NCBI RefSeq assembly: GCF_001548055.1
Contig: NZ_AP014724.1
Span: forward strand, 2,170,001-2,234,000
Direction: 5' to 3'
Length of the DNA: 64,000 nucleotides
Source of the DNA: Sulfurospirillum cavolei
Lineage (GTDB): Bacteria; Campylobacterota; Campylobacteria; Campylobacterales; Sulfurospirillaceae
Position numbers and translations under genes: made by a program
Notes under the pieces: generated by a model
Told to the model about the DNA's origin: nothing
The model's database searches: none
The model's input: only the letters and a program-made list of their open reading frames with translations
Shown here: piece by piece, positions 886 through 53,207 of the stretch
Numbering within the stretch: the stretch's first letter is position 1
How the letters are laid out: each line of letters starts with the position of its first letter

Positions 886-1374
886 ATGATGATTGACGAC
901 CAAACGAAAAAAACGTATCAGTCACTTCTTGATTCGACGACGACGCGCGTCAAAAGCGGTTTGGAAGATGCAAACTCGTTTGCGCAAACACTCGCCGACG
1001 AGATTAAAGCCAAATTTTCAACCGATAATGAAACCTCTACGGTCAAAGATTCAGAAACGACGCAGAGGGATCCTGCGGTTGAAACGTTTCTGGAAGATCT
1101 AAAAACAAAAGGTGCTCTTGCATTCTACCAAGACTACAATTTTGAAAAAATTGAGAAATTAATCGAAGAAAAGAAAGCGGAACTTACTGAAAAATTAGGT
1201 CTAGGAGAATCCACGCAACCGCCGCTTACGGGCAAAGCCCGCGAAGATGCGTTGACGAGCCTTGACGATATGCTCGACGCCTACCGAAAACAACTTCAAG
1301 AAAAAATGCAAGCGGAAGATAAGCTCGATCAGCAAAATACGATGCTCGGTACGTTTTTACAAGATTTAGCTTAA
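886..1374 (+). CDS. conserved-looking hypothetical protein, helical, 162 aa
   Basis: Function not recognised. The protein is soluble, highly charged and mostly helical, with a Glu/Lys-rich coiled-coil-like stretch near residues 83-103 and another near 120-150. It has no signal peptide and no membrane segment. AAGGAG sits six bases before the ATG at 886. Its TAA stop shares the TTAA at 1371-1374 with the stop codon of the convergent methyltransferase, so the two genes end on each other. Its neighbour upstream is the divergent acetyltransferase. Confidence 0.75.
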   Translation: MMIDDQTKKTYQSLLDSTTTRVKSGLEDANSFAQTLADEIKAKFSTDNETSTVKDSETTQRDPAVETFLEDLKTKGALAFYQDYNFEKIEKLIEEKKAELTEKLGLGESTQPPLTGKAREDALTSLDDMLDAYRKQLQEKMQAEDKLDQQNTMLGTFLQDLA

Positions 1375-2057
1375 CGTTTCCGATACACTAGCAAGGTTTT
1401 ATCGGGGGAATCGCCAAAAAGCCTCAGGGCTTCGGTTGTCTCCAATCGAAACCCTTCTTGTTTCTTGAGCTCTCCGAGCGTGTGAAAATATTGTCGGATT
1501 TGACCGCTGTGTTTACGGTAAAGCTCGCCCTCTTTTTCAAAAAATGCGATATGCGTTAAGAGTTCTTTGTCGGCATAATTAGCTTCGATGCATAAAAACT
1601 GCGTTTCGTTTTCAAAGCGCATCACACCCTCCGCAACGGCTTCAAATCCGTACAGGGTATTGACATCGCATACAAAATAACCTTTGGGTTTTAACACGCG
1701 ATTAATCGTGTGAAAAAAACCCGCCAACTCTTTGGGCGGTATGTAATTGAGCACGTCCGCGACCGCCGTAACGCAGTCAAAACGTTCCGCTTCAAAATCC
1801 TCCAACTCTTTACACGATGCTCGAACGCCGATCTCGTTGGCACGCTGAACCATAGAATCACTCCGATCGATCCCTTCCGCGTCGATATGTCGCTCTAAAA
1901 GATGCTTTAAAAACTTTCCGTTCCCGCATCCCACATCTAAAACCGAGCCGATAGAATAAGAGCTTAAATACCGAAGGTACGTTTTATAGAGGATTTCATA
2001 TTGGTCGTAAAAACCGATGAAAGGTTCAATTTTGGCGTAAAGATCAAGTGGATTCAT
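1371..2057 (-). CDS. class I SAM-dependent methyltransferase
   Basis: A 228-residue enzyme with a Rossmann-type methyltransferase core. Motif I is VLDVGCGNGKFLKHL near residues 40-54, the acidic residue ending beta-2 is in EGIDRSD, and the post-I region FDCVTAVADVLNYI follows. The N-terminal helices and C-terminal extension resemble the broad methyltransferase type 11/25 group, so the acceptor cannot be predicted. The ATG at 2057 is preceded by GGAAAG. The gene follows mqo on the same strand across a hairpin at 2070-2086. Confidence 0.85.
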   Translation of the reverse strand: MNPLDLYAKIEPFIGFYDQYEILYKTYLRYLSSYSIGSVLDVGCGNGKFLKHLLERHIDAEGIDRSDSMVQRANEIGVRASCKELEDFEAERFDCVTAVADVLNYIPPKELAGFFHTINRVLKPKGYFVCDVNTLYGFEAVAEGVMRFENETQFLCIEANYADKELLTHIAFFEKEGELYRKHSGQIRQYFHTLGELKKQEGFRLETTEALRLFGDSPDKTLLVYRKR

Positions 2058-2069
2058 GAGCAGCTTTCC

Positions 2070-2086
2070 GAGGGCGTTACGCCCTC
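2070..2086 (-). terminator. GC-rich intercistronic hairpin between mqo and the methyltransferase
   Basis: A perfect stem of seven base pairs, GAGGGCG and CGCCCTC, around the loop TTA. It follows the mqo stop on the minus strand but has no T-run; instead the next bases form the ribosome binding site of the methyltransferase. It is more likely an mRNA 3'-end stabiliser or a weak attenuator than a full terminator. Confidence 0.5.
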
Positions 2087-2094
2087 GAAGATTT

Positions 2095-3435
2095 TTAGTC
2101 TAATAACTCTTGTCGAAATAAGGCTTCGTTAAACGTACGACCGAGATGTTCGCATACTAGTTTAACGTCCCGACGGGCATTACCTAAACAGCTCGTTGCT
2201 CCTGGGCTTGGCGTCATATTGAAAATAATGCCGATACCGGGATTAATGCTCGCTTCGCCTAACATTAACTTTTGTTCTTTTTTGTTGATCACCTGCGGTC
2301 GTACGCCGCCGAAATTCTTCGCGTATTCAATTTCGTCTAATTGCAACGAAGGAACGATTTTTCGCGCATCTTTTAAGAAAAGCCCTTTATTGAAGTAAGG
2401 CACTTCAAATAAAAAGTTACGGAAGATATAATTTCTAATATCGCTATCTTTGAGCAAATCGTAGAATACTTTCGCGACTTTTCCGTCAAATTGCAACGTT
2501 TGCCAAAAATCAAGGTACGTACCGCCCGTGTAACGCTCCAACTTCGGCAAAACCAGCGCCGTCGGGCCAAAACGCGTACAGCCGCCGGCTAAAACGTCAG
2601 GGTCGCCGTGTAACGCGGCAAACGGAAGCTTTGGATTTTGAACCATATAGACTTTGCCGTTGAGCATCTTTTGTTTCGTCAAATAAAAACTTCCCGCAAC
2701 CGGCAAGCACGCAAAATCCAACCCGAATCCCATTTGATGCGCTAAATAAAGCGAATGCGCTCCGGCATTCACTACCACAAAATCCGCCGTAAAAGTATGG
2801 TCTTTGGTCATCACGACAAACATATCGCCGAGTTTCGTGATATTCGTCACTTGCGCATTTAAGTATACGTCCGCAACTTTTCCTTCGATTTTTTGTGCCT
2901 CTTCGACCAAACTTTCCGTCATTGCGCCAAAATCGACCGTACTGTACTCGCCGCCTTCGACGCCTACGCCTATAATGCTTTCCGGTCGTTCTTTACCGTT
3001 TTCGTCGAAGATCAATTTCGGCTCGATTTTCGCCAATTTTTCCTTATCGAAAACTTCCAAATACGGATACAACTCTTTAAACTCTTCGTAACGTTTTTGC
3101 ATGTACGCCACTTCGGTATCGCCTACGCCGATTGCCATTTTTTGGTGTGCAAATAAAAACTTTCCTTCATGACCGTATTGAAGGCAATATTTTGCGACCA
3201 TACTCGCCGTTTCTTTGACTTTTTTCGCTTTTTCTAGAGTATAGTTTGTCTCGATGTCACCGCAGTGAATCGTTTGAGAGTTTGACGTTCCGGCAGAATT
3301 AAGCTTTGCCAATTTTTCATATTTTTCAACCAGCGCGATACGCTTAATATCCGTGTATCTTGCAAGCTCGTAAAACAGAGCCGCACCTGAAATTCCGCCA
3401 CCGACGACTAAAACGTCATAGTGATTTTTTGTCAT
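2095..3435 (-). CDS. mqo: malate:quinone oxidoreductase-like FAD enzyme
   Basis: A 446-residue flavoprotein with the dinucleotide-binding motif VVGGGISGAALFYEL at residues 9-23. The following SAGTSNSQTIHCGDIETNYT and the C-terminal NFGGVRPQ and GIGIIFNMTPSPGATSCLGNA stretches match the Mqo family, which oxidises malate at the inner face of the membrane and feeds electrons to quinone. Mqo replaces NAD-dependent malate oxidation in many Campylobacterota. The frame opens at a TTG at 3444, but ATG at 3435 has AGGAAG nine bases upstream. A related LhgO-type 2-hydroxyacid oxidase is the main alternative. Confidence 0.8.
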   Translation of the reverse strand: MTKNHYDVLVVGGGISGAALFYELARYTDIKRIALVEKYEKLAKLNSAGTSNSQTIHCGDIETNYTLEKAKKVKETASMVAKYCLQYGHEGKFLFAHQKMAIGVGDTEVAYMQKRYEEFKELYPYLEVFDKEKLAKIEPKLIFDENGKERPESIIGVGVEGGEYSTVDFGAMTESLVEEAQKIEGKVADVYLNAQVTNITKLGDMFVVMTKDHTFTADFVVVNAGAHSLYLAHQMGFGLDFACLPVAGSFYLTKQKMLNGKVYMVQNPKLPFAALHGDPDVLAGGCTRFGPTALVLPKLERYTGGTYLDFWQTLQFDGKVAKVFYDLLKDSDIRNYIFRNFLFEVPYFNKGLFLKDARKIVPSLQLDEIEYAKNFGGVRPQVINKKEQKLMLGEASINPGIGIIFNMTPSPGATSCLGNARRDVKLVCEHLGRTFNEALFRQELLD

Positions 3436-10141: not shown

Positions 10142-11095
10142 TTATTCGATCGGTATGTTTTTAGATGTGCAATAATTCAAGATATCTTCATCTTTTTCAT
10201 AATACATGTCACATTCTTTCTCTAATTCCAACAAAGACGAATTGACATATTTGTCATCCGCACTTAATATTTTTTCAATTTGTTCTATAAATTGGCGATA
10301 TTTCTCGTTAATATGGCACAGCTTGTCAATCGTTTGATAGTCTAAGTTTTTATAAGAAGATTGAAAAAGAATTTGGCTTTCAAACGGATTTGCATGAAGT
10401 TTAATTACCCCAATTCCAAAAGACTTATTTAATCGCTCCATCTCTTCTTTCAAATTATCATTAATTTCAAAGGCCACCAAATAACCTAAATTTGCCCATG
10501 TCGAATTTGAAACGGCTTGAAAGTAATATTTTTTTAATTCATAATCTGAATTGATCTCTTTTTTAATCTCATAGGAAATGATTTCACAAGAGTCTTTTCT
10601 TTCAAGTGTTTTCAATAACTTACTGCTCGTTGCACTTTTAAATTTCGCAAACTTCACGCCGATAATATCGGGATGCGCCCATTTTTGCGTGTCGTCTTTA
10701 CTATTTTTCGACTCTTCGTGTAAAATCGTTTTGGCATAAATACCTCGACTTTTAAGATAGCTTACAAACAAAACATGCAAATCTCTCTCAGAGAAGCAAG
10801 CCTTCGTACCTTTTTTAGAGCCATTTTCGTCTTGCAAAAGCACATTCGCTTCTTCAACTGCCAAAAGATCGTTTTTCGTCAGATAGTAAAAATAAGCACC
10901 GTTTTGTTTAACTCTAGCAACTCTCGTATCGCCCTTGCGAATAAAATCACCCAATAAAGCAGATACCGTTGCGTGAGGTGTTTGTCCTTCAAACGCATAT
11001 AACTTATTGTCTAAAATGTATTTTGTGATTTCTTGATAAGAAACAGGCTTACTGAAATTTTCAAGTGCTTTTAATATGCTATCTTTAATGGTCAT
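10142..11095 (-). CDS. HARE-HTH protein with a PD-(D/E)XK nuclease-like domain
   Basis: A 317-residue protein unlike its neighbours in composition: it is clearly more AT-rich. Residues 3-75 fit the HARE-HTH winged-helix fold (VSYQEITKYILDNKLY, then a variable loop and AYFYYL), found in restriction systems and chromatin proteins. Residues 100-215 carry what looks like a restriction-endonuclease core: AHPDIIG (Asp143), SYEIKKE (Glu176, Lys178) and a later FQAVSNSTWANLGYLVAFE. It resembles the COG2958 type. Role unknown; DNA binding and cleavage are inferred from motifs only. It sits inside the housekeeping run, between the ThiF gene and dapC. Confidence 0.72.
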   Translation of the reverse strand: MTIKDSILKALENFSKPVSYQEITKYILDNKLYAFEGQTPHATVSALLGDFIRKGDTRVARVKQNGAYFYYLTKNDLLAVEEANVLLQDENGSKKGTKACFSERDLHVLFVSYLKSRGIYAKTILHEESKNSKDDTQKWAHPDIIGVKFAKFKSATSSKLLKTLERKDSCEIISYEIKKEINSDYELKKYYFQAVSNSTWANLGYLVAFEINDNLKEEMERLNKSFGIGVIKLHANPFESQILFQSSYKNLDYQTIDKLCHINEKYRQFIEQIEKILSADDKYVNSSLLELEKECDMYYEKDEDILNYCTSKNIPIE

Positions 11096-16875: not shown

Positions 16876-19630
16876 TGAGAGCCTCGGCGCATCGGTGGCA
16901 TAGCTCTTCTTCGCTTTTTGATCGGTATTTCCAACAACGTGGACATTTGCATTTAGGAGCTTTTAAAATTTTAAAACGATCTTTTTCGACTTCAAAAACG
17001 CCGATTTCGCCGCTTTCTTCATGCTCGATCACGCGGCTGACCGTAAACCAATCTTCCGCATCGACCTTATCGAGTGCGATGATTTTTGCGGACGCCGTTT
17101 GTATGACCAATTCCAACGTCGATTTAATCACTTTTTCTTTCTTCAAACTATCGACGATTTCAAAAAATTTCTCTCGTGCTTCGATCATGTAAGCTTCGTC
17201 AAACGAAGACGTATGATCCGGTAGCGGTTGATAGACCAGATCAAAAACACCGGTACCGCCTTGTTTCACGATGTTCGGCGCATACTCCATCATTTCGTCG
17301 ATCGTATACGTAAGCGTCGGCGCAAATAAAGCCATCATACGCTCGGTAATCAGTGCCATCGCGCTTTGTGCGGAGAGGCGGATCGTGTCGTTTTTGGCGT
17401 TACAATAGAGCCTGTCTTTGGAAATATCGAGGTAAATACCGCTGAGTTCCACCGCAATAAAATGGTTCAAAAGCGCAAAGCCTTTGGAAAATTCGTACTC
17501 CCTAAAATAGCCTTCCGCCTCATCGAAAACGGCTTTGGCATGGGATAATATCCAACGATCCAACGCCCCCATCTGCTCGTAGGGCAAAAGCGTTTCCAAG
17601 TCGTTGATATTGGCAAGTAAAAAACGAAACGTATTACGGATTTTTCGATACTGCTCGCTGACTTGTTTTAAGATATTATCACTGATTTTTTGGTCGCTCA
17701 TGTATTCACTGGTAACAGCCCAGAGGCGTAAAATCTCGACACCATGGCTTTTGGCAATATCAATCGGGGAGATAACATTTCCCTTCGATTTGCTCATTTT
17801 CTCGCCCTTTTCATCCATGGTAAATCCATGAGTCAAGACTTTCTGGTATGGCGCGATGCCATTATTGGCGGTGCTAACAAGCAGTGAGCTTTGGAACCAA
17901 CCACGGTGTTGATCGCTTCCTTCAAAATACATGGTCGCAGGATAACTTCCCGCATCATAATCGGACGATTCAAGTACCGCTTTCCATGTACTACCGCTAT
18001 CAAACCAGACGTCTAGAATATCCATCACTTTTTCAAGGTTTTCTGCTTTATAGCCACTGTTTTCAACCAAAAGGTCTTTGATCTCCAAATCCCACCACGC
18101 ATCCGCACCTTTTTCTTCAAAGATGGCGGCAATGTGTGTTACGACCTTGGTATCAAAAATAGGTTTACCCGTTGTTTTGTCTCTAAAAAAGGCTATTGGC
18201 ACACCCCAATCGCGCTGACGGGAGATACACCAATCCGGGCGATTTTCGATCATCGAACCCAAACGGTTGATACCTGATTTTGGGTAAAAACGCACTTTTT
18301 CAAGTTCATCCATCGCCATTTTGCGAAGGCTTTCACGTCCACCAACGGCTTCATCCATTGCGACAAACCACTGCTTGGTTGCACGGTAGATGACCGGTTG
18401 ATGCGTTCTCCAACAAAACGGATAGGAGTGAGTGAATTTGGAACATTTAAGCAATCGATCACCCAAAAGTTCTAAAATGCGCTCATTGCATTTAAAGATA
18501 TGCTCGCCTACAAAACTCTGCGCATCGGGAAGTAGCCCTAAATGAACCACTGTCTCATCGTAACAACCACGCTCATCGACGGGCATAATCACTTCAAGAC
18601 CATAGCGAAGCCCGACTTTGTAGTCATCATCACCATGCCCTGGTGCGGTATGAACACAGCCGCTACCACCATCCATTGTGACGTGATCGCCTAAAATCAG
18701 TTGTGATTTTCGACCGTTAAGAGGATTGATGGCAAAACTGTTCTCCAACACGCTGGCTTTAAAGGTTTTAACAACGTCACCTTGTACCACACCTTGCTCT
18801 AACAGTTTTACATGTAAAGGCTCAGCGACGATGTAGCCATCCGATGTCAACACATAATTTTCATTTGGACTAAACGAAATACCCACGTTGGCAGGCAATG
18901 TCCATGGCGTTGTTGTCCAGATGATTACTGAAGCATCCGAGCTGATTTCCAGTTTTGCTTTGGCTTCAGAGCTGAGTGCAAAGGCAACAAAGATAGAGTA
19001 ATCTTCTTTGTCTTCATACTCCACTTCGGCTTCGGCTAACGCACTGCGTGCCGCCCATGACCAGTAAACGGGTTTGCTTCGCTCAACCAAAAGACCGCGC
19101 TCAGCCACACCGCACAAGGCACGGTAAATATCGGCTTCAAATTTAAACTTCATCGTCATATAGGGATTGTCCCAATCGCCAATGACGCCTAACGATTTGA
19201 ACTCTTCTCTTTGAATATCGATAAATTTGCGGGCATGTTCACGACACAACTCTCTGATTTTACTTTTAGGAAGTGCGTCTTTTTTCTCTTTACCTAGATT
19301 TTTTTCAACCTGTTGCTCAATGGGCAAACCATGGCAATCCCAACCAGGAACGTAACGAACTTTCTCGCCAAAAAAATAGTGGGTTTTAACAATGACATCT
19401 TTGAGAATTTTGTTCAGCGCGTGTCCAATGTGAATGTGTCCATTTGCGTAAGGAGGCCCGTCGTGCAAAATAAACGTCTTGGAACTGTTTTCGCGATTCT
19501 TGATCATGCGTGCGTAAGCGCTTTCCTCTTTTGAAAACCACTTAGCGTAACGAGCGGGTTCGTTTTGGGGTAGATTGCCTCTCATCGGGAACGCCGTTTG
19601 AGGAAGAAGCAAGGTCTCTTTATAGTCCAT
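16868..19630 (-). CDS. ileS: isoleucine--tRNA ligase
   Basis: A 920-residue class I synthetase charging tRNA(Ile). HIGH is present as [11 protein letters not shown] near residues 65-75 and KMSKS as EKMSKSKGN in the C-terminal half, with the editing domain ([11 protein letters not shown]) between. The C-terminal zinc finger [10 protein letters not shown]...CHRCAEAL is complete. The ATG at 19630 follows GGAGAG. The 5' two thirds (about 17.65-19.63 kb) are much poorer in CpG than the 3' part and than the neighbouring genes, so the gene looks like a recombinant of two related alleles; the frame is intact. Confidence 0.97.
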
Positions 19631-46963: not shown

Positions 46964-47179
46964 ATGACATTTGAACTAGACGAAGAATACATCGAGTTGT
47001 TTAAACTGCTTAAAGTCATGGGCGTAGCAGACAGTGGCGCACACGCGAAGATGCTCATCGAAGAAGGCAATGTGAAACGAAACGGCGAAGTGGAGACACG
47101 AAAACGCGCTAAAATCGTTGCAGGAGAGAAGATCGAAGTGGGTGGTGAAAGCATCACGGTTGAAACCATTTCACACTAA
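46964..47179 (+). CDS. S4-domain RNA-binding protein (YbcJ-like)
   Basis: A 71-residue protein that is little more than an S4 domain: EEYIELFKLLKVMGVADSGAHAKMLIEEGNVKRNGEVETRKRAKIVAGEKIEV. S4 domains bind structured RNA. It resembles the YbcJ/RlbA small RNA-binding proteins. It follows the ABM gene by 42 bases. Confidence 0.88.
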   Translation: MTFELDEEYIELFKLLKVMGVADSGAHAKMLIEEGNVKRNGEVETRKRAKIVAGEKIEVGGESITVETISH

Positions 47180-47316
47180 AATAGGACACATCTACTTTAA
47201 AAAGCATTGATTTCTCTAATGTAATGTGGAGTATAGTACCTCCTTCATTTTAAATACTCCTATGCACCCTCAAAATGTTTTTTGTCGCCACTGCATTCAT
47301 GAAGGATGACTCAACG

Positions 47317-48603
47317 ATGCTCAGTTTAAACAAAACAAAGCGAATTGTCGTTTTTATCTTAGGACAATTCATTATGGCGTTAGGTGTCTCACTCTCGGTT
47401 AAAGCCAACCTCGGGGTTTCGCCAATCTCTTGTGTACCGTATGTGTACAGCTTAACGATGTCACTCAGTTTAGGCGAATTGACCATTTTGCTCAACCTTG
47501 TTTTTATTGTCTCGCAAATGGCGGTTTTACGCAAAAACTACCAATGGGCACAACTGGTTCAACTCCCTTCCGTCATCGTTTTTGGGTACTGCATTGACTT
47601 TACGATGCATCTGCTCTCCGCGCTCTCTCCCACATCGTATGTCGCGCAAGTTTTTTGGTGTTTAGTCGCATGTTGTGTGTTGGCATTTGGTATCTTTTTG
47701 CTTTTAAAAACACGTTTGACCTATTTACCGCTCGATGGTTTGGCGGTTGCGATTTCGCACACGTATCATAAAGAGTTTGGTAAAGTCAAAATCAGCTTGG
47801 ATAGCACCATGGTCATCATCGGTGTCATCAGCTCTTTTGCTTTTTTAAATCGCTTGGAGGGCATACGCGAAGGCAGTGTGGTTGCGGCGTTACTCGTTGG
47901 AGCATTGATTAAATTTTACAGTACCAAATTGGTCTTTGTCGAACAATGGCTTGGAACATACACTACGCCTCAACCACAAAGCACGCAAGAGACGGCTCTT
48001 AATTCGCTGGTCATTACCATCTCAAGAGAGTACGGTAGCGGCGGACATGAGATAGGAGAGATGATCGCCAAAGAGCTTGGCATTCCTTTTTACGATAAAG
48101 AGCTTATTAAACTCACCGCCGAAGAGACGGGCTACACGGCAGAATACATTCAAGCCAACGAGCAACATTTAGCCAGTGAACTACTCTATGAACTCTACGA
48201 GCAAAACTATGCCTATGTGGATGACCAGCTTCCGCCTGAGGATGTTTTGTTTATGGTGCAAAGTAAGATTATTCGCGATATTTGTGCTAAAGGGGCATGC
48301 GTCATCGTCGGGCGCTGTGCCAATTTTATCTTAAAAGATGACCCCAATTGTTTCAATGTTTTCATTCATGCCAACATGGCGTACCGCAAAACCAAAGTCA
48401 ATGAAAAGTATGGAGCCACACCGCCATGTACCGACAAAGACTTAGAAATGTCCGATAAAAATCGCGCCAACTACTGCCTTCACTACACCAAACACGACTG
48501 GAAAGATGCGACCAATTATCATGTCACCCTTGATGCTTCTTTGTACGGTTCCGAAAAAGCGGCTCAAAAGATCATCGAACTGTTGAAAGATTTTGCACAT
48601 TAA
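47317..48603 (+). CDS. fusion of a YczE/YitT-like membrane domain and a cytidylate-kinase-like domain
   Basis: A 428-residue two-part protein. Residues 8-205 contain about five membrane segments of the YczE (DUF6198) type, starting IVVFILGQFIMALGVSLSVKANLGVSP. After a ~15-residue linker (residues 214-228) comes a P-loop kinase of the cytidylate-kinase-like group: LVITISREYGSGGHEIGEMIAKELG, ...FYDKELI, and VGRCANFIL. Which nucleotide it phosphorylates is unknown. ATG at 47317 has AAGGA ten bases upstream; ATGs at 47299 and 47275 are alternatives. Confidence 0.85.
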   Translation: MLSLNKTKRIVVFILGQFIMALGVSLSVKANLGVSPISCVPYVYSLTMSLSLGELTILLNLVFIVSQMAVLRKNYQWAQLVQLPSVIVFGYCIDFTMHLLSALSPTSYVAQVFWCLVACCVLAFGIFLLLKTRLTYLPLDGLAVAISHTYHKEFGKVKISLDSTMVIIGVISSFAFLNRLEGIREGSVVAALLVGALIKFYSTKLVFVEQWLGTYTTPQPQSTQETALNSLVITISREYGSGGHEIGEMIAKELGIPFYDKELIKLTAEETGYTAEYIQANEQHLASELLYELYEQNYAYVDDQLPPEDVLFMVQSKIIRDICAKGACVIVGRCANFILKDDPNCFNVFIHANMAYRKTKVNEKYGATPPCTDKDLEMSDKNRANYCLHYTKHDWKDATNYHVTLDASLYGSEKAAQKIIELLKDFAH

Positions 48604-48711
48604 CGTCTTTACATGTAAACGTAAATCGTACGAAAGATGGAGGGGTTAACCGCTTACTCACGCATCACATTTGATATAATTGGCTCTTAACAATTATTTG
48701 AGGAATTGACC

Positions 48712-49086
48712 ATGAACGATTTAGAGCTGATAAAACGCTACATCGAAGCATACAACACCTTTGACATCGAAACGATGATAAGTACGCTTCACCCTGACAT
48801 CGCATTTCAAAACATCTCCAACGGCGAAATCAACGCCGAAACACACGGTATAGAAGCTTTCCGAACCCTCGCAGAACAGTCCAAAGGACTTTTTACATCT
48901 CGCAAACAGACCATCACCAATGTCGAAACCCACGAGTCTCAAACACGCATCGACGTCACATTTGAAGCCGTCCTCGCCATCGACCTCCCCAACGGACTTA
49001 AAGCAGGCGAGTTCCTCCAACTCCAAGGAAACTCAGAGTTTACCTTTCGCGATGGAAAGATCGTAAGCATTGTGGATAGAGCTTGA
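48712..49086 (+). CDS. SnoaL/NTF2-like protein
   Basis: A 124-residue protein with the NTF2-like cone fold pattern: IKRYIEAYNTFDIETMISTLHPDIAFQNI, ...GIEAFRTLAEQSKGLF, and FTFRDGKIVSIVDRA. The family includes isomerases, polyketide cyclases and simple binding proteins; the role cannot be told here. ATG at 48712 has GAGGAA upstream. TTACATGTAA copies flank it on both sides. Confidence 0.85.
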   Translation: MNDLELIKRYIEAYNTFDIETMISTLHPDIAFQNISNGEINAETHGIEAFRTLAEQSKGLFTSRKQTITNVETHESQTRIDVTFEAVLAIDLPNGLKAGEFLQLQGNSEFTFRDGKIVSIVDRA

Positions 49087-49190
49087 TGGGTTTTACATGT
49101 AAAGGGGTTGGCTGGGAAAAGTTTTAAAATCTAGTATTGCCTCCTATTTACTATGTTACACTCTTTTATATTTAGGTGTATTATTATAAG

Positions 49191-51026
49191 ATGACTAAGA
49201 AAATCATAGCATGGATATCAATGAATCTAAATATTAAAACTCCCATCATATCAATTATCAAAGCTTTTCCATACGCATTACTCATTTCTATAATTATGAA
49301 CATTGGCTCAACAATCCAACCGATATTTATTAAATTATTTACTAGTGAAGAAGTAAAACTTTATGATACTCTGCATGAAGGTAAAATTGCGATTTATCAA
49401 ACAAATTTTATACAATATTTTATAGAATATCCCTGGTCTTGGTTTCTAATCCCATCTTTGGCAATTATTTATTTTGCATTTAAGGCAACCTCATTAAAAA
49501 AAATTCTCATTTATCTAACAATATTTATCTTTGCAACGTTAATGATTACAGACTATTTATTTGTATTTATTCATGCTAAAAATTTGGATAATCATTTATC
49601 AAATTTAATATCTAATATTATTGGTAGCCCAATTATCGCGATTATTGTTATTTTATCTTTAGATACAGGATATGCAATAAACCAATATTTTGAAATAAAT
49701 CATGAAATTTATCGTGAATTATTAAATGGATTAATTGCAATCATATATGGATTTATCATTGCATTTATCGTGTATATCATCTATATTAACGTTTATACTG
49801 TTACAAAATCGAAAATTGATTTGTCTATCAAAGCTCCAATAAAAGGGGCTTATACTATAGACAATGAAGCAAATAAAACATCAGAAAAAAACTATGGCTT
49901 TTTATCTTCTACATCTACAAACATAGAAAAAATATATTGGCATGGATTTAGCGATAATTTTACACTTAACTGGGAAAAAAAGATTAATAAAAATCCTCTT
50001 GTTTATAATGCAGAAATTAGAATACTCGATTCATGTTTTAAAGATAAAGATAAAATTGCTAAAGCTATATCAGCTTCGCCAACTTATGTAATCAAAAATA
50101 TTAATAAGTTTAAACTGACCGCTAATAATGGACCGCTAGAAATGTATACCTTGCCAAATTTGTCCAATTCAAGTGAAAAATTTTTAATTTCATCCAAAGA
50201 TGATAAGAAGAAAGTGATATTTTGGATAAGTGAATCAAAAACAAAAGGATATGATTTGACTCGTTTTATAGATAATTCTGATCAAATAAAATATTCTTTA
50301 TATGATAATAAAATATCATATGTTCTGACTCTTGTAACTTTTAATGACCATTTACAAAACTCACAAGAAATAGTCAAACCAAGAGAGCTTTCTTTGCAAA
50401 CAAATAATGAAGATTTTTCAATTTCCTTAATTCCTCCTACACAACTTAATTCAAAAAATAATTCACAAAAAAATTGCCAGATTTTTCATAAATCTGAAAA
50501 TAACGCTTACAACCTTCAAAGTATAACTAGTAAGATCATTCTTACAATACAAGAAGCTCAAGATATTCAAAAACCACTATCATTAAATTCCATATTAGCT
50601 AATCACAATATTCAAGAAGAAGTTAGTATTGAAGGATTTAATGGTTGGATCAAGGCACAAGAAGTAGAAAAAAATAAACTTTCATCATATATCAATGATC
50701 TTCCATTAAATTCCATTTCTGTAACTGCCCCTATTCAAACATTATATATTGATGGAAAGGAATTTAAACAAACTTTATCTTCCAATAACATACAAATAAG
50801 CAATGCTTCATTAATAGGTAATGCAACATCTGATGGGTTCTTGAAATTTACAGGAAATACACAAGCCGTATATATAAATGAAGAAAGAGCAAATTTAAGT
50901 CGTTGGGAGAAATTAGATTCGGAATATAAGTACATTGCGTTTTTTAGCTTACTTGGTAGTATTATATTAATTATATTTAAAAGATTAAAATACATCTTAA
51001 ATGCCAATAAACAATATACATTATAG
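49191..51026 (+). CDS. AT-rich orphan membrane protein, 611 aa
   Basis: No family recognised. About five hydrophobic segments occupy residues 15-205, then a large ~370-residue soluble domain follows, rich in Asn, Lys, Ser and Ile, and a single membrane helix near residues 580-600 (YIAFFSLLGSIILIIF) closes the protein just before the C-terminus. Cysteines are few. Base composition is far more AT-rich than anything else in the window (stretches near 20-25% G+C), which suggests transfer from a low-GC source. ATG at 49191 is preferred; GTG at 49176 is in frame. A terminator-like hairpin lies after the stop. Confidence 0.8.
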   Translation: MTKKIIAWISMNLNIKTPIISIIKAFPYALLISIIMNIGSTIQPIFIKLFTSEEVKLYDTLHEGKIAIYQTNFIQYFIEYPWSWFLIPSLAIIYFAFKATSLKKILIYLTIFIFATLMITDYLFVFIHAKNLDNHLSNLISNIIGSPIIAIIVILSLDTGYAINQYFEINHEIYRELLNGLIAIIYGFIIAFIVYIIYINVYTVTKSKIDLSIKAPIKGAYTIDNEANKTSEKNYGFLSSTSTNIEKIYWHGFSDNFTLNWEKKINKNPLVYNAEIRILDSCFKDKDKIAKAISASPTYVIKNINKFKLTANNGPLEMYTLPNLSNSSEKFLISSKDDKKKVIFWISESKTKGYDLTRFIDNSDQIKYSLYDNKISYVLTLVTFNDHLQNSQEIVKPRELSLQTNNEDFSISLIPPTQLNSKNNSQKNCQIFHKSENNAYNLQSITSKIILTIQEAQDIQKPLSLNSILANHNIQEEVSIEGFNGWIKAQEVEKNKLSSYINDLPLNSISVTAPIQTLYIDGKEFKQTLSSNNIQISNASLIGNATSDGFLKFTGNTQAVYINEERANLSRWEKLDSEYKYIAFFSLLGSIILIIFKRLKYILNANKQYTL

Positions 51027-51034
51027 GCATACTA

Positions 51035-51144
51035 GAAAAGCCTCTCTCAAGGCTTCCCCATCTTTACATGTAAACCTTACGCAGGTTTTTTAATCAACAA
51101 TTTTTCAGTGTCAGATGCCGCTTCATCGGTCAAATGTAAGTTAA
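51035..51144. repeat. left direct repeat: copy of the hcp 3' end
   Basis: 110 bases that match 51834-51943 with about six mismatches. The repeat covers the hcp terminator hairpin (AAGCCT/AAGGCTT), a TTACATGTAA, the hcp stop codon and the last ~22 codons. The offset between copies is 799 bases, and the DUF433/DUF5615 pair lies between them. Confidence 0.85.
51077..51143 (-). pseudogene. remnant of an hcp 3' end
   Basis: On the minus strand this encodes the hcp C-terminal tail (TDEAASDTEKLLIKKPA and the same stop), with no upstream gene body. It is a fragment, not an expressed gene. Confidence 0.75.
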
Positions 51145-51183
51145 GAGAAAAAGAGGGCAAGCGACTTTTTTATCTTCTTTATT

Positions 51184-51516
51184 TCATATCTCCAAAATAG
51201 CACTCACATCATCGTCTAAAAATTCGACGATGCTCTCATAATTCTCTCGCAATATCGTAGCGATAGCGTCTACTTTACAATTTCCAAGTTTAATCCAGAT
51301 AATTTTCGGAGGAATTCCTCGGTATATCGCCAAGTCGTTAAAATCAGAATCCTTAGTGACGATGGCAAAACCGTGGATTTTTGCATATCGCCACACTTCT
51401 AAGTCGGTTGATTCATCAAGGTTTTTAAGCATTACATGTAAAGAGTTTGGGAAGATGTCCGCTAGTTTTGGCAAGACACGATGGGAGATGTTATTGTCAA
51501 AAAGGAGTTTATGCAC
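51184..51516 (-). CDS. DUF5615 PIN-like protein (toxin candidate)
   Basis: A 110-residue protein with the DUF5615 pattern: KLLFDNNISHRVLPKLADIFPNSLHV, then DLEVWRYAKIHGFAIVTKDSDFNDLAIYRG. The Asp residues in LLFDNN and VTKDSDF match the acidic metal site of PIN-like nucleases. It is predicted to be the toxin partner of the DUF433 gene upstream. GTG at 51516 is chosen; it overlaps the DUF433 stop by eight bases. Confidence 0.85.
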   Translation of the reverse strand: MHKLLFDNNISHRVLPKLADIFPNSLHVMLKNLDESTDLEVWRYAKIHGFAIVTKDSDFNDLAIYRGIPPKIIWIKLGNCKVDAIATILRENYESIVEFLDDDVSAILEI

Positions 51517-51736
51517 TGAGTTTTGCGCTAAGCGTTTTATGCTCTCTATCGGCGGCATAGGCAAGGGCGGCTAAAATATCTTCTTTCGTTAGTTTGGGGA
51601 AGTCTTCTAAAATCTCATCGTAACTCATGCCCTCTGCAAGCATAGCAAGAATGTCGTAAACCGTAATGCGTAGATTTCTAATGCAAGGTTTACCGCTTCT
51701 TTTTGATGATTTGATGGTAACGGTTGTACTCATCAT
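51509..51736 (-). CDS. DUF433 antitoxin-like protein
   Basis: A 75-residue protein with a short N-terminal beta part and a HTH of the DUF433 type: SGKPCIRNLRITVYDILAMLAEGMSYDEILEDFPKLTKEDILAALAYAADRE. These are DNA-binding antitoxins usually paired with PIN-like partners. GAGGAGGCAA precedes tandem ATGs at 51736/51733. Confidence 0.9.
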   Translation of the reverse strand: MMSTTVTIKSSKRSGKPCIRNLRITVYDILAMLAEGMSYDEILEDFPKLTKEDILAALAYAADREHKTLSAKLSA

Positions 51737-51833
51737 TTGCCTCCTCTCAATCTTTATATAAAGCTTATTTTAGCATATTTTTTCAAAGCTTTTTCTTCTT
51801 TACATGTAAAGAAATTAAGAGGCAAAACATTTG

Positions 51834-51943
51834 AGAAAGCCTTTTTCAAGGCTTCCCCATCTTTACATGTAAACCTTACGCAGGTTTTTTAATCAACAAT
51901 TTTTCAGTATCAGATGCCGCGTCATCGGTCAAATGCAAGTTAA
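51834..51943. repeat. right direct repeat: intact hcp 3' end
   Basis: The functional copy of the 110-base repeat at 51035-51144. It includes the hcp stop at 51876-51878 and the AAGCCTTTTTCAAGGCTT hairpin that should terminate hcp. Confidence 0.85.
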
Positions 51944-53207
51944 AGTTCTCTTGCAAGAAGGCGAAGATGTCGTCGTTGACGAATTGTGGTGGTTTTGGTC
52001 CGAGGTAGATGTTTTTGATGCCAAGGCTAAAGAGTCCTAAAAGAATGAGAACCGCTTTTTGCTCCATCCAACTCAAAACGATCGAAACAGGAAGATCATG
52101 AACGGTTACACCAAGTGCGCCAGCAAGTGCTAGAGCGATGTGTACAGCGCCGTTACTGTCGTTGCATTGACCAAGGTCTAGGTAGCGAGGAATGCCTGTG
52201 TCTGCCACCGTTCCAAAGTCGATATCGTTAAATCTAAATTTACCGCAACTAGACGTCAAGATGACGCAGTCATTGGGGAGACTCTCTGCCATTTTTCGGT
52301 AGTATTCCCCGCCTGAGCCAGGAGCGTCACATCCTGCGATGACGAAGAATTGACTGATTTTGCCTGCTTTTACTGCTTCTAAGATTTGAGGAGCAAGACC
52401 GAGAATCGTTTTATAGTGGTGACCCGTTACAAGTGTCTCGTCACTGTCAAAACCTGTAACATCAGGAAGGGCAAGTGTTTGAGCGATGACTTCGCTAAAG
52501 TCATTGTTTTGGATTTTTTTGCCCTCTTTGATGCCGACGATGTCGTACGTATAGAGTCTATCGACATAGGTTGAAGTTGATTTTGGAGGAACGATACAGT
52601 TGGTGTTTACGATGATGGTTCCGCCCCATTGCTCGAAGAGTTTGGTTTGGTCAAACCATGATTTACCGATGTTACCTTTGAGGTGTGCGTATTTTCTAAG
52701 TTCTGGGTAACCGTGCGCTGGGATCATCTCAGAGTGGGTGTAGATGTTGATGCCTTTGCCCTCGGTTTGTTTGAGAAGTTCAAGTAACATGTCAAGGTTA
52801 TGACCGCTCACTAAGATCGCTTTGCCCTCAGCCTTGTTTTGAGAGATGCGAACAGGCGTTGGAATGCCAAGGTGAGACGTGTGTGCTTCGCTTAAGATGT
52901 CCATCATTTTAACACCCGCTGAACCGATTTTCATGAGTTGAGCGATGTGGTCATCGAAGTTGAAATTGACGTTGGTAAGGGTGAAGTAAAGGGTTTGAGC
53001 GATGACGTCATCGACTTCTTTGGTGTCTGCACCAAATTCATTCGCGTGTGTTCTATACGCACTAAGACCCTTAAGACCATAGATCATGATGTCTTGAAGT
53101 TTCGCCAAGTTGGCATCTTTGCCGCACGTTCCAGCCTCTTGACCTTTAGAACCACAGCCACCGATGGCACTCATAGAGCATTGATCACATAACATGTTTA
53201 AAGACAT
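51876..53207 (-). CDS. hcp: hybrid-cluster protein (hydroxylamine reductase), short class
   Basis: A 443-residue prismane protein. The N-terminal cluster ligands are Cys7, Cys10, Cys18 and Cys28 (LCDQCS...GGCGS...GTCGK). Hybrid-cluster ligands fall in SGHNLDML, VIAGCDAPG, LTSSCGKFRF and LGQCNDSNG. It is about 100 residues shorter than classical Hcp, which matches the class III form seen in several anaerobes and Campylobacterota. Family role: NO or hydroxylamine detoxification and S-nitrosylation control. A palindrome at 53264-53281 suggests CRP/FNR-type control. Confidence 0.93.
   Translation of the reverse strand: MSLNMLCDQCSMSAIGGCGSKGQEAGTCGKDANLAKLQDIMIYGLKGLSAYRTHANEFGADTKEVDDVIAQTLYFTLTNVNFNFDDHIAQLMKIGSAGVKMMDILSEAHTSHLGIPTPVRISQNKAEGKAILVSGHNLDMLLELLKQTEGKGINIYTHSEMIPAHGYPELRKYAHLKGNIGKSWFDQTKLFEQWGGTIIVNTNCIVPPKSTSTYVDRLYTYDIVGIKEGKKIQNNDFSEVIAQTLALPDVTGFDSDETLVTGHHYKTILGLAPQILEAVKAGKISQFFVIAGCDAPGSGGEYYRKMAESLPNDCVILTSSCGKFRFNDIDFGTVADTGIPRYLDLGQCNDSNGAVHIALALAGALGVTVHDLPVSIVLSWMEQKAVLILLGLFSLGIKNIYLGPKPPQFVNDDIFAFLQENFNLHLTDDAASDTEKLLIKKPA

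Follow-up and report, generated by a model that had tools for sequence, protein, structure and literature searches.

The window, a stretch of 64,000 nucleotides of the Sulfurospirillum cavolei genome, carries at 49191-51026 a gene for a 611-residue membrane protein, referred to here as P0001. It lies between a SnoaL-like gene and a toxin-antitoxin-like gene pair, in a slot that is bounded by a small gene on the left and an hcp-like gene on the right. The names of these two landmarks, S4 and hcp, are those we presume to apply. L066 in the list denotes the corresponding locus of one relative from the same genus.

46964..47179, plus strand: small gene of 71 amino acids (presumably S4), left landmark of the slot
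48712..49086, plus strand: SnoaL-like gene, left neighbour (Pfam SnoaL_2, E 4.9e-11; same junction in L066)
49092..49103: TTTACATGTAAA palindrome left of the cassette, just past the snoaL stop codon
49148..49149: left edge of the cassette, at the last base of homology with L066
49172..49178, plus strand: putative Shine-Dalgarno-like stretch (AGGTG), containing the GTG at 49176
49191..51026, plus strand: gene of P0001, 611 aa, preferred ATG start, TAG stop
51037..51144: first copy of a 108-nt repeat (hcp 3' end plus downstream DNA), right edge of the cassette
51063..51074: TTTACATGTAAA palindrome right of the cassette, 37 nt past the P0001 stop codon
51184..51564, minus strand: DUF5615 (PIN-like) protein (Pfam E 1.9e-31)
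51509..51736, minus strand: DUF433 protein (Pfam E 3.7e-24)
51836..51943: copy 2 of the 108-nt repeat (95% identity to copy 1), which overlaps the true 3' end of hcp
51876..53207, minus strand: hcp-like gene, right landmark, with matches in 23 of the 24 genus genomes, its own included

For P0001, translation could also begin at a GTG at position 49176, five codons 5' of the ATG. This GTG overlaps the AGGTG stretch and is thus an unlikely start, so that ATG 49191 is preferred; in the alignment, the homologue from Rhizobium (see below) starts with M-T at the very position of this ATG. Since two divergent homologues (606 and 632 aa) preserve the length of the ORF, we regard 49191-51026 as a genuine gene and reject the idea that it is open merely by chance in AT-rich sequence. 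An earlier note on this DNA had drawn attention to the extremely low G+C, and the numbers bear this out: from 49176 to 51026, G+C is 0.261 and GC3 0.186, compared with a mean of 0.447 (sd 0.031) for the other ORFs of the window (n=56, non-overlapping, at least 100 aa), which places the gene about 6 sd from the mean. The next-lowest ORF of the window, 10142-11095 (317 aa), has a G+C of 0.331.

Protein architecture and homologues

The layout that the earlier note had read from the letters, with five N-terminal membrane segments, a large Asn/Lys-rich soluble domain and a last helix close to the C-terminus, was recovered by ORF analysis, hydropathy and composition (residues 204-578 contain 11.2% Asn and 10.4% Lys). 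The elements of the protein are as follows.

49242..49298, plus strand: hydrophobic segment 1, residues 18-36
49440..49496, plus strand: hydrophobic segment 2, residues 84-102
49515..49571, plus strand: hydrophobic segment 3, residues 109-127
49605..49661, plus strand: hydrophobic segment 4, residues 139-157
49731..49787, plus strand: hydrophobic segment 5, residues 181-199
49788..50930, plus strand: soluble domain, residues 200-580 (381 residues), putatively periplasmic
50034..50036, plus strand: Cys282, aligned with a Cys in both homologues
50475..50477, plus strand: Cys429, second conserved Cys, proposed disulfide partner of Cys282
50877..50915, plus strand: family signature N563-x-x-R566-x5-W572-E573-x-L575, directly before the last helix
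50931..50987, plus strand: hydrophobic segment 6, residues 581-599; the C-terminus beyond it is positively charged

No named family could be assigned, in keeping with the earlier note, which had recognised none. The profile search suggested there was carried out and gave no significant match in four profile libraries or among PDB sequences, hence no match to a known family with an ordinary role: the best E values were 0.83 in Pfam, 0.21 in PHROGs and 0.54 for PDB sequences (2.5 in a PDB profile search), and NCBIfam and PADLOC returned zero matches. The weak matches at E 0.83, 0.21 and 0.54, a type IV pilin among them, were rejected as chance. The designation "orphan" holds insofar as there is no named family; as a strict statement it does not, for two rare homologues exist. 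A tblastn search of 72,556 plasmid records with P0001 gave a single match (E 0.03) on plasmid pRlX2 of Rhizobium johnstonii TP25, corresponding to the hypothetical protein WP_327208007.1 (606 aa; P0002). In direct BLASTP, P0001 and P0002 align over 599 columns with 19% identity (E 4e-25). A profile of these two proteins, run against 398 genomes from the phylum of a Xenorhabdus khoisanae genome, gave one match (E 2e-9), a 632-aa protein (P0004) encoded on the minus strand of genome G883 (L081:1444-3339). We take this phylum to be Pseudomonadota, so that the P0004 host would probably belong there as well. P0004 is about 17% identical to P0001; in BLASTP it matches P0001 residues 248-580 (E 2e-12) and also P0002 (E 3e-10). 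Against Pfam, the best E value of P0002 was 0.11, and P0004 had no match at E 0.01.

With 500 shuffles per pair, in which membrane and soluble parts were kept apart, the maximal scores were 25.8, 28.5 and 29.3 bits, compared with 96.3, 56.2 and 49.3 bits for the real pairs P0001-P0002, P0001-P0004 and P0002-P0004, respectively. Invariant positions in all three proteins include Cys282, Cys429, Gly485-Trp486, Asn563, Arg566, Trp572, Glu573 and Leu575. P0001, P0002 and P0004 are one family of three members, as shown by significant similarity over most of their length, by the aligned pair of cysteines and by the motif that precedes the last helix. P0002 has the five-plus-one arrangement of segments in common with P0001, as well as the two cysteines, the G-W pair and N-x-x-R-x5-W-E-x-L before the last helix, but differs by one additional borderline segment and by its composition (gene G+C 51% in a 57% locus). 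P0004 likewise has the invariant residues of P0001 and differs by one extra hydrophobic segment.

We predict that the 381-residue domain of P0001 is periplasmic and the C-terminus inside, as five helices, an odd number, would follow an inside N-terminus, and as the domain carries a conserved cysteine pair. The N-terminal tail is net positive in all three proteins, and so are the short loop between segments 2 and 3 of P0001 and its counterparts; P0001 and P0004 also have a positive tail at the C-terminus. Counting against this topology, the C-terminal tail of P0002 is neutral, the loop 158-180 of P0001, predicted to be inside, is acidic, and each homologue has seven hydropathy segments versus six in P0001. 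The additional segments, 210-228 in P0002 (hydropathy 1.26, barely above the limit of 1.25) and 53-71 in P0004 (1.45, same limit), matter insofar as either of them, if truly a helix preceding the domain, would shift the domain to the opposite side of the membrane in that homologue. Cys282 and Cys429 are the sole cysteines of P0001; as a pair conserved in a domain predicted to be exported, they point to a Cys282-Cys429 disulfide. The structure prediction advised by the earlier note was run, though to little profit: AlphaFold2 without alignment gave a pLDDT of 35 for the whole protein and 30 for the soluble domain, and the models are unusable.

The neighbourhoods of the homologues differ from one another, and no conserved partner gene was seen in them. 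According to the annotation, two TA-like pairs and an ISL3 transposase lie within a few kb of the Rhizobium copy, whose neighbours are otherwise unlike those of P0001. About 0.4 kb from the P0004 gene is a gene whose product combines hemagglutinin repeats with a deaminase domain at the C-terminus, and a DUF6911 gene comes next; from reading, we also presume stretches beside the P0004 gene to be transposase-like.

The family looks rare by these searches. In a set of 60 genomes of relatives, its own included, the P0001 gene was not found in the other 59, and in the plasmid census one record of 72,556 bears a member. No member turned up in the family of a Ciceribacter genome (297 genomes searched), in the order of the P0004 host (240 genomes, the host itself excepted), in 118 genomes of the phylum of genome G502 or in five further individual genomes. 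In tblastn searches of 50,697 phage records, P0001 had no match at E <= 1 and P0004 none at E <= 0.1, and P0002 gave weak ones (best E 0.6): a Hoc/Ig-like hint, from 16 phage records (12 of Escherichia phages), was dismissed as too weak. IMG/VR scans with a few short patterns, which amount to weak evidence, yielded no confirmed member. A plasmid search with P0004 came back empty, missing even the Rhizobium plasmid at E <= 0.1, so that empty searches with one to three rows are weak evidence of absence, and distant members may have been overlooked by them.

Several further candidates were examined and rejected. Weak matches of P0001 occurred in 12 of 398 genomes of the order (E 0.0025-0.53) and in 9 of 298 genomes of the phylum (E 0.003-0.06), its own genome not counted. 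When compared with the three proteins, the 21 corresponding ORFs matched over at most 94 residues at E 2e-4 or weaker (in a small set), none over its full length, and they were judged to be chance matches; we take one of them (L007) to be a GlmS-like enzyme and two (L016, L023) to be copper-ATPase-like. DNA motif scans gave two matches in viral contigs and ten in genome contigs, all 12 of which were chance by tblastn and ORF reading, and in a first scan of genome contigs with P0001 none of 41 pattern matches was confirmed.

The variable slot beside hcp

The DNA beside hcp (about 9 kb) was surveyed in 20 of the 22 other genus genomes, with G001, G022 and a second match in G006 omitted. It varies strongly in size and content, and its cargo is often of low G+C. 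Thirty cargo proteins were compared with Pfam and ten of these with PADLOC; the cargo of L064 was judged by its ORFs matching those of L061. Recognised restriction or anti-phage families are present in 10 of the 20 loci (L063, L065-L067, L069, L070 and L076-L079), and two further loci contain other named domains.

L063: DRT RT_UG36, E 3.8e-124
L065: TIR protein of the CAP12/Pycsar type, E 1.7e-26
L066: type I methyltransferase and specificity subunit
L067: PD-Lambda-4_A, E 1.2e-24
L069: McrBC, E 2.6e-44
L070: nSTAND3, E 3.5e-9 (Pfam only, no PADLOC match)
L076: type I HsdM; the left landmark was not found, so possibly another slot
L077: type II methyltransferase of the Eco57I type, E 7e-136, with a GHKL protein
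L078: PD-T4-6 kinase, E 5.9e-69
L079: protein 91% identical to the PD-Lambda-4_A protein of L067 over 1244 aligned positions
L068: HipA
L080: FRG domain

No defence family was recognised in L062, L071, L072, L073 and L075, of whose ORFs a part was scanned singly; L074 has nothing in the slot and L072 next to nothing. Genes of a non-defence kind or without assigned identity also occur in the relatives, e.g. DUF2971, UPF0489 and a 370-aa ORF. The small gene that marks the left side was not found in L070, L075, L076 and L077, and the left neighbour is instead yitT-cmk in L070 and L077 and a helicase in L075. In the window, 47275-48603 encodes a DUF6198/YitT-like membrane half (Pfam E 1.6e-14) fused to a cytidylate-kinase-like half (E 9.2e-51); several of the 20 relatives have this fusion as well, and in L069 it reads as two ORFs. 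In L070 (3127-7653), a 259-aa protein with a start that reads as hydrophobic directly precedes the 1249-aa nSTAND3-type NTPase. L061 encodes on the minus strand (1075-3108) a 678-aa protein of 25% G+C behind a NERD nuclease-related gene, and the same cassette is found in L064. This protein has no match in Pfam (E <= 0.01) or PADLOC (E <= 0.001) and is a candidate for another putative defence gene.

At E <= 1e-10, PADLOC assigned 208 families among 75 cargo proteins (with fragments of hcp, most fragments of yitT-cmk and those L064 proteins that duplicate L061 set aside) versus 41 among 53 other proteins of the window. We rejected this count as an enrichment statistic, since ordinary window genes also match; the matches listed for this control include the E1-E2, DpdF, mad, PsyrT, BrxH and PD-T4-2 models. 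Because of such cross-matches, the argument is built on individual matches that are specific and strong, rather than on this ratio. On this basis, the slot between the small conserved gene and hcp is a defence-rich hotspot. The guess of the earlier note that the gene might sit in a hot spot for acquired genes thus proved correct and can be sharpened, as the slot varies among 20 genomes and half of the loci carry defence families. The co-occurrence with mobile elements or defence genes that it proposed to look for was seen as well, with defence families in the slot of the relatives, and TA-like pairs and an ISL3 transposase near the Rhizobium copy. Known defence islands and hotspots with variable cargo likewise accommodate different, often low-GC modules at one site across species. 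In contrast to their known cargo, the P0001 cassette is without a recognised defence domain.

The left edge of the cassette is resolved to the base. Between 48600 and 49300, the window and L066 are identical at 404 of 495 positions (82%), through snoaL and the palindrome, with the homology ending at 49148. Past this point comes the type I R-M-like module in L066, but the P0001 gene in the window, with its ATG 42 nt on. The right edge begins 10 bases past the P0001 stop codon with the first 108-nt repeat copy. In the 20 relatives this DNA is situated at the hcp end, and partial copies of it occur at the edges of other cassettes (for example, L067 8156-8219 and L061 8059-8108, in window orientation), which suggests a homology-driven exchange of cassettes. 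The simplest account would be that cassettes are swapped by recombination between short shared stretches.

The two 108-nt copies bracket the DUF433/DUF5615 module; on the simplest account, this TA-like module would have come in separately, by an event in which the tail of hcp was duplicated. The adjoining TA-like module reported earlier is genuine by family (E 3.7e-24 and 1.9e-31). Its two ORFs overlap on the same strand, as in the layout of type II toxin-antitoxin systems, and we take the DUF433 protein to be the probable antitoxin and the DUF5615 protein the probable toxin. The pair is found in 6 of the 20 loci (L067, L068, L071, L077, L079 and L080).

Proposed role and alternatives

The P0001 gene by itself makes up a cassette of about 1.9 kb (49149-51036), which we read as acquired by horizontal transfer, and we tentatively propose that its product is an envelope-anchored defence or exclusion factor, a reading that we regard as quite possible. 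Horizontal movement is indicated by the G+C of 26%, the failure to find the gene in 59 relatives and the distant homologues, one of them on a Rhizobium plasmid. As a single mobile gene in the defence slot of the relatives, and with the homologue neighbourhoods described above, P0001 would be accounted for most economically by a defence or exclusion function; the role is thus deduced from location, and the build of the protein points to the envelope as its site of action. The five N-terminal helices and the last helix would anchor P0001 in the inner membrane with both termini in the cytoplasm, while the soluble domain of about 380 residues, held by the Cys282-Cys429 disulfide, would face the periplasm. 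In this position it could encounter phages or other invaders as they enter, and P0001 would then either block the invader or trigger a response at the membrane. The most specific version of this proposal is a new one-gene anti-phage system, thinly spread among distant bacteria as a stand-alone cassette. In it, the periplasmic domain, stabilised by its disulfide, would detect or stop the entering phage, and the membrane part with its six helices would respond; taken with all its parts, we consider this version unlikely.

The bacterial defences known so far mostly target nucleic acid or detect the phage once it is in the cell, and few work in the periplasm. Single-gene abortive-infection and superinfection-exclusion proteins of the membrane are like P0001 in being membrane proteins encoded by one gene in a mobile slot, but they are mostly small. 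We know of none with five helices, a cysteine-paired outer domain of 380 residues and a last helix. In the literature, we found no description of the P0001 family, although a nameless protein is hard to search for in text. Defence hotspots are already known; what would be new, if the proposal is true, is a hotspot member of one gene that works at the envelope through an outer domain with paired cysteines. A single transferable gene of such design could easily be tested in laboratory strains. Apart from this, the slot beside hcp is now a mapped hotspot of the genus and a source of further unannotated cargo, e.g. the 678-aa ORF of L061 and L064.

P0001 could also be accessory cargo without a role in defence, related for example to envelope stress, lipids or polysaccharides, that landed by chance in a permissive slot. 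We consider this somewhat unlikely. The slot does carry other genes without an assigned role, such as DUF2971, UPF0489 and the 370-aa ORF, and neither PADLOC nor other defence models match P0001. However, restriction or anti-phage families occupy 10 of the 20 loci, a type I R-M-like module follows the very same junction in L066, and no pathway genes accompany P0001.

An immunity or exclusion protein with the same envelope-anchored domain, acting not on phages but against contact-delivered toxins, bacteriocins or incoming plasmids, would suit the proposed periplasmic domain and helices. The protein encoded about 0.4 kb from the P0004 gene has the look of contact-dependent inhibition, and the Rhizobium copy resides on a conjugative plasmid. 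Immunity proteins are usually small, however, and 600 residues would be large for one; moreover, no such toxin gene is seen among the neighbouring ORFs of the window (a part of which was scanned by profile), and the slot is instead rich in anti-phage cargo. We consider this function quite unlikely for P0001. Finally, it is very improbable that P0001 is a remnant or selfish gene of a decayed phage, plasmid or larger element, e.g. a superinfection-exclusion gene of a prophage: an extreme AT content is typical of many phage genes and morons, and a lone gene with short repeated DNA at the slot edges would fit, but the ORF is of full length and without decay, P0001 and P0004 have no match in the 50,697 phage records, and IMG/VR gave none that was confirmed, which is weak evidence.

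The TTTACATGTAAA palindrome

The 12-mer TTTACATGTAAA is found in the window at 48608, 49092, 51063, 51799 and 51862, and also at 18807 and 45202. The region 48600-51900 thus contains five copies versus 0.18 expected, although this region was picked after the copies had been seen. We found no report of the palindrome in Sulfurospirillum in the literature. Its number per genome varies from 14 to 792 in the 24 genus genomes, with 144 copies in the genome studied here, while the reversed sequence as control occurs 0-3 times. Among the 60 relatives, there are 27-346 copies in the sister genus g2, 58 in g3 and 7-310 in g5, whereas g4 and the remainder of the order have 0-3 copies. Of the 90 copies in the window and the 20 loci, 77 are not within ORFs of at least 90 aa, and 51 of these 77 are within 100 nt downstream of a stop codon. 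The palindrome might serve as an uptake, recombination or terminator-like signal.
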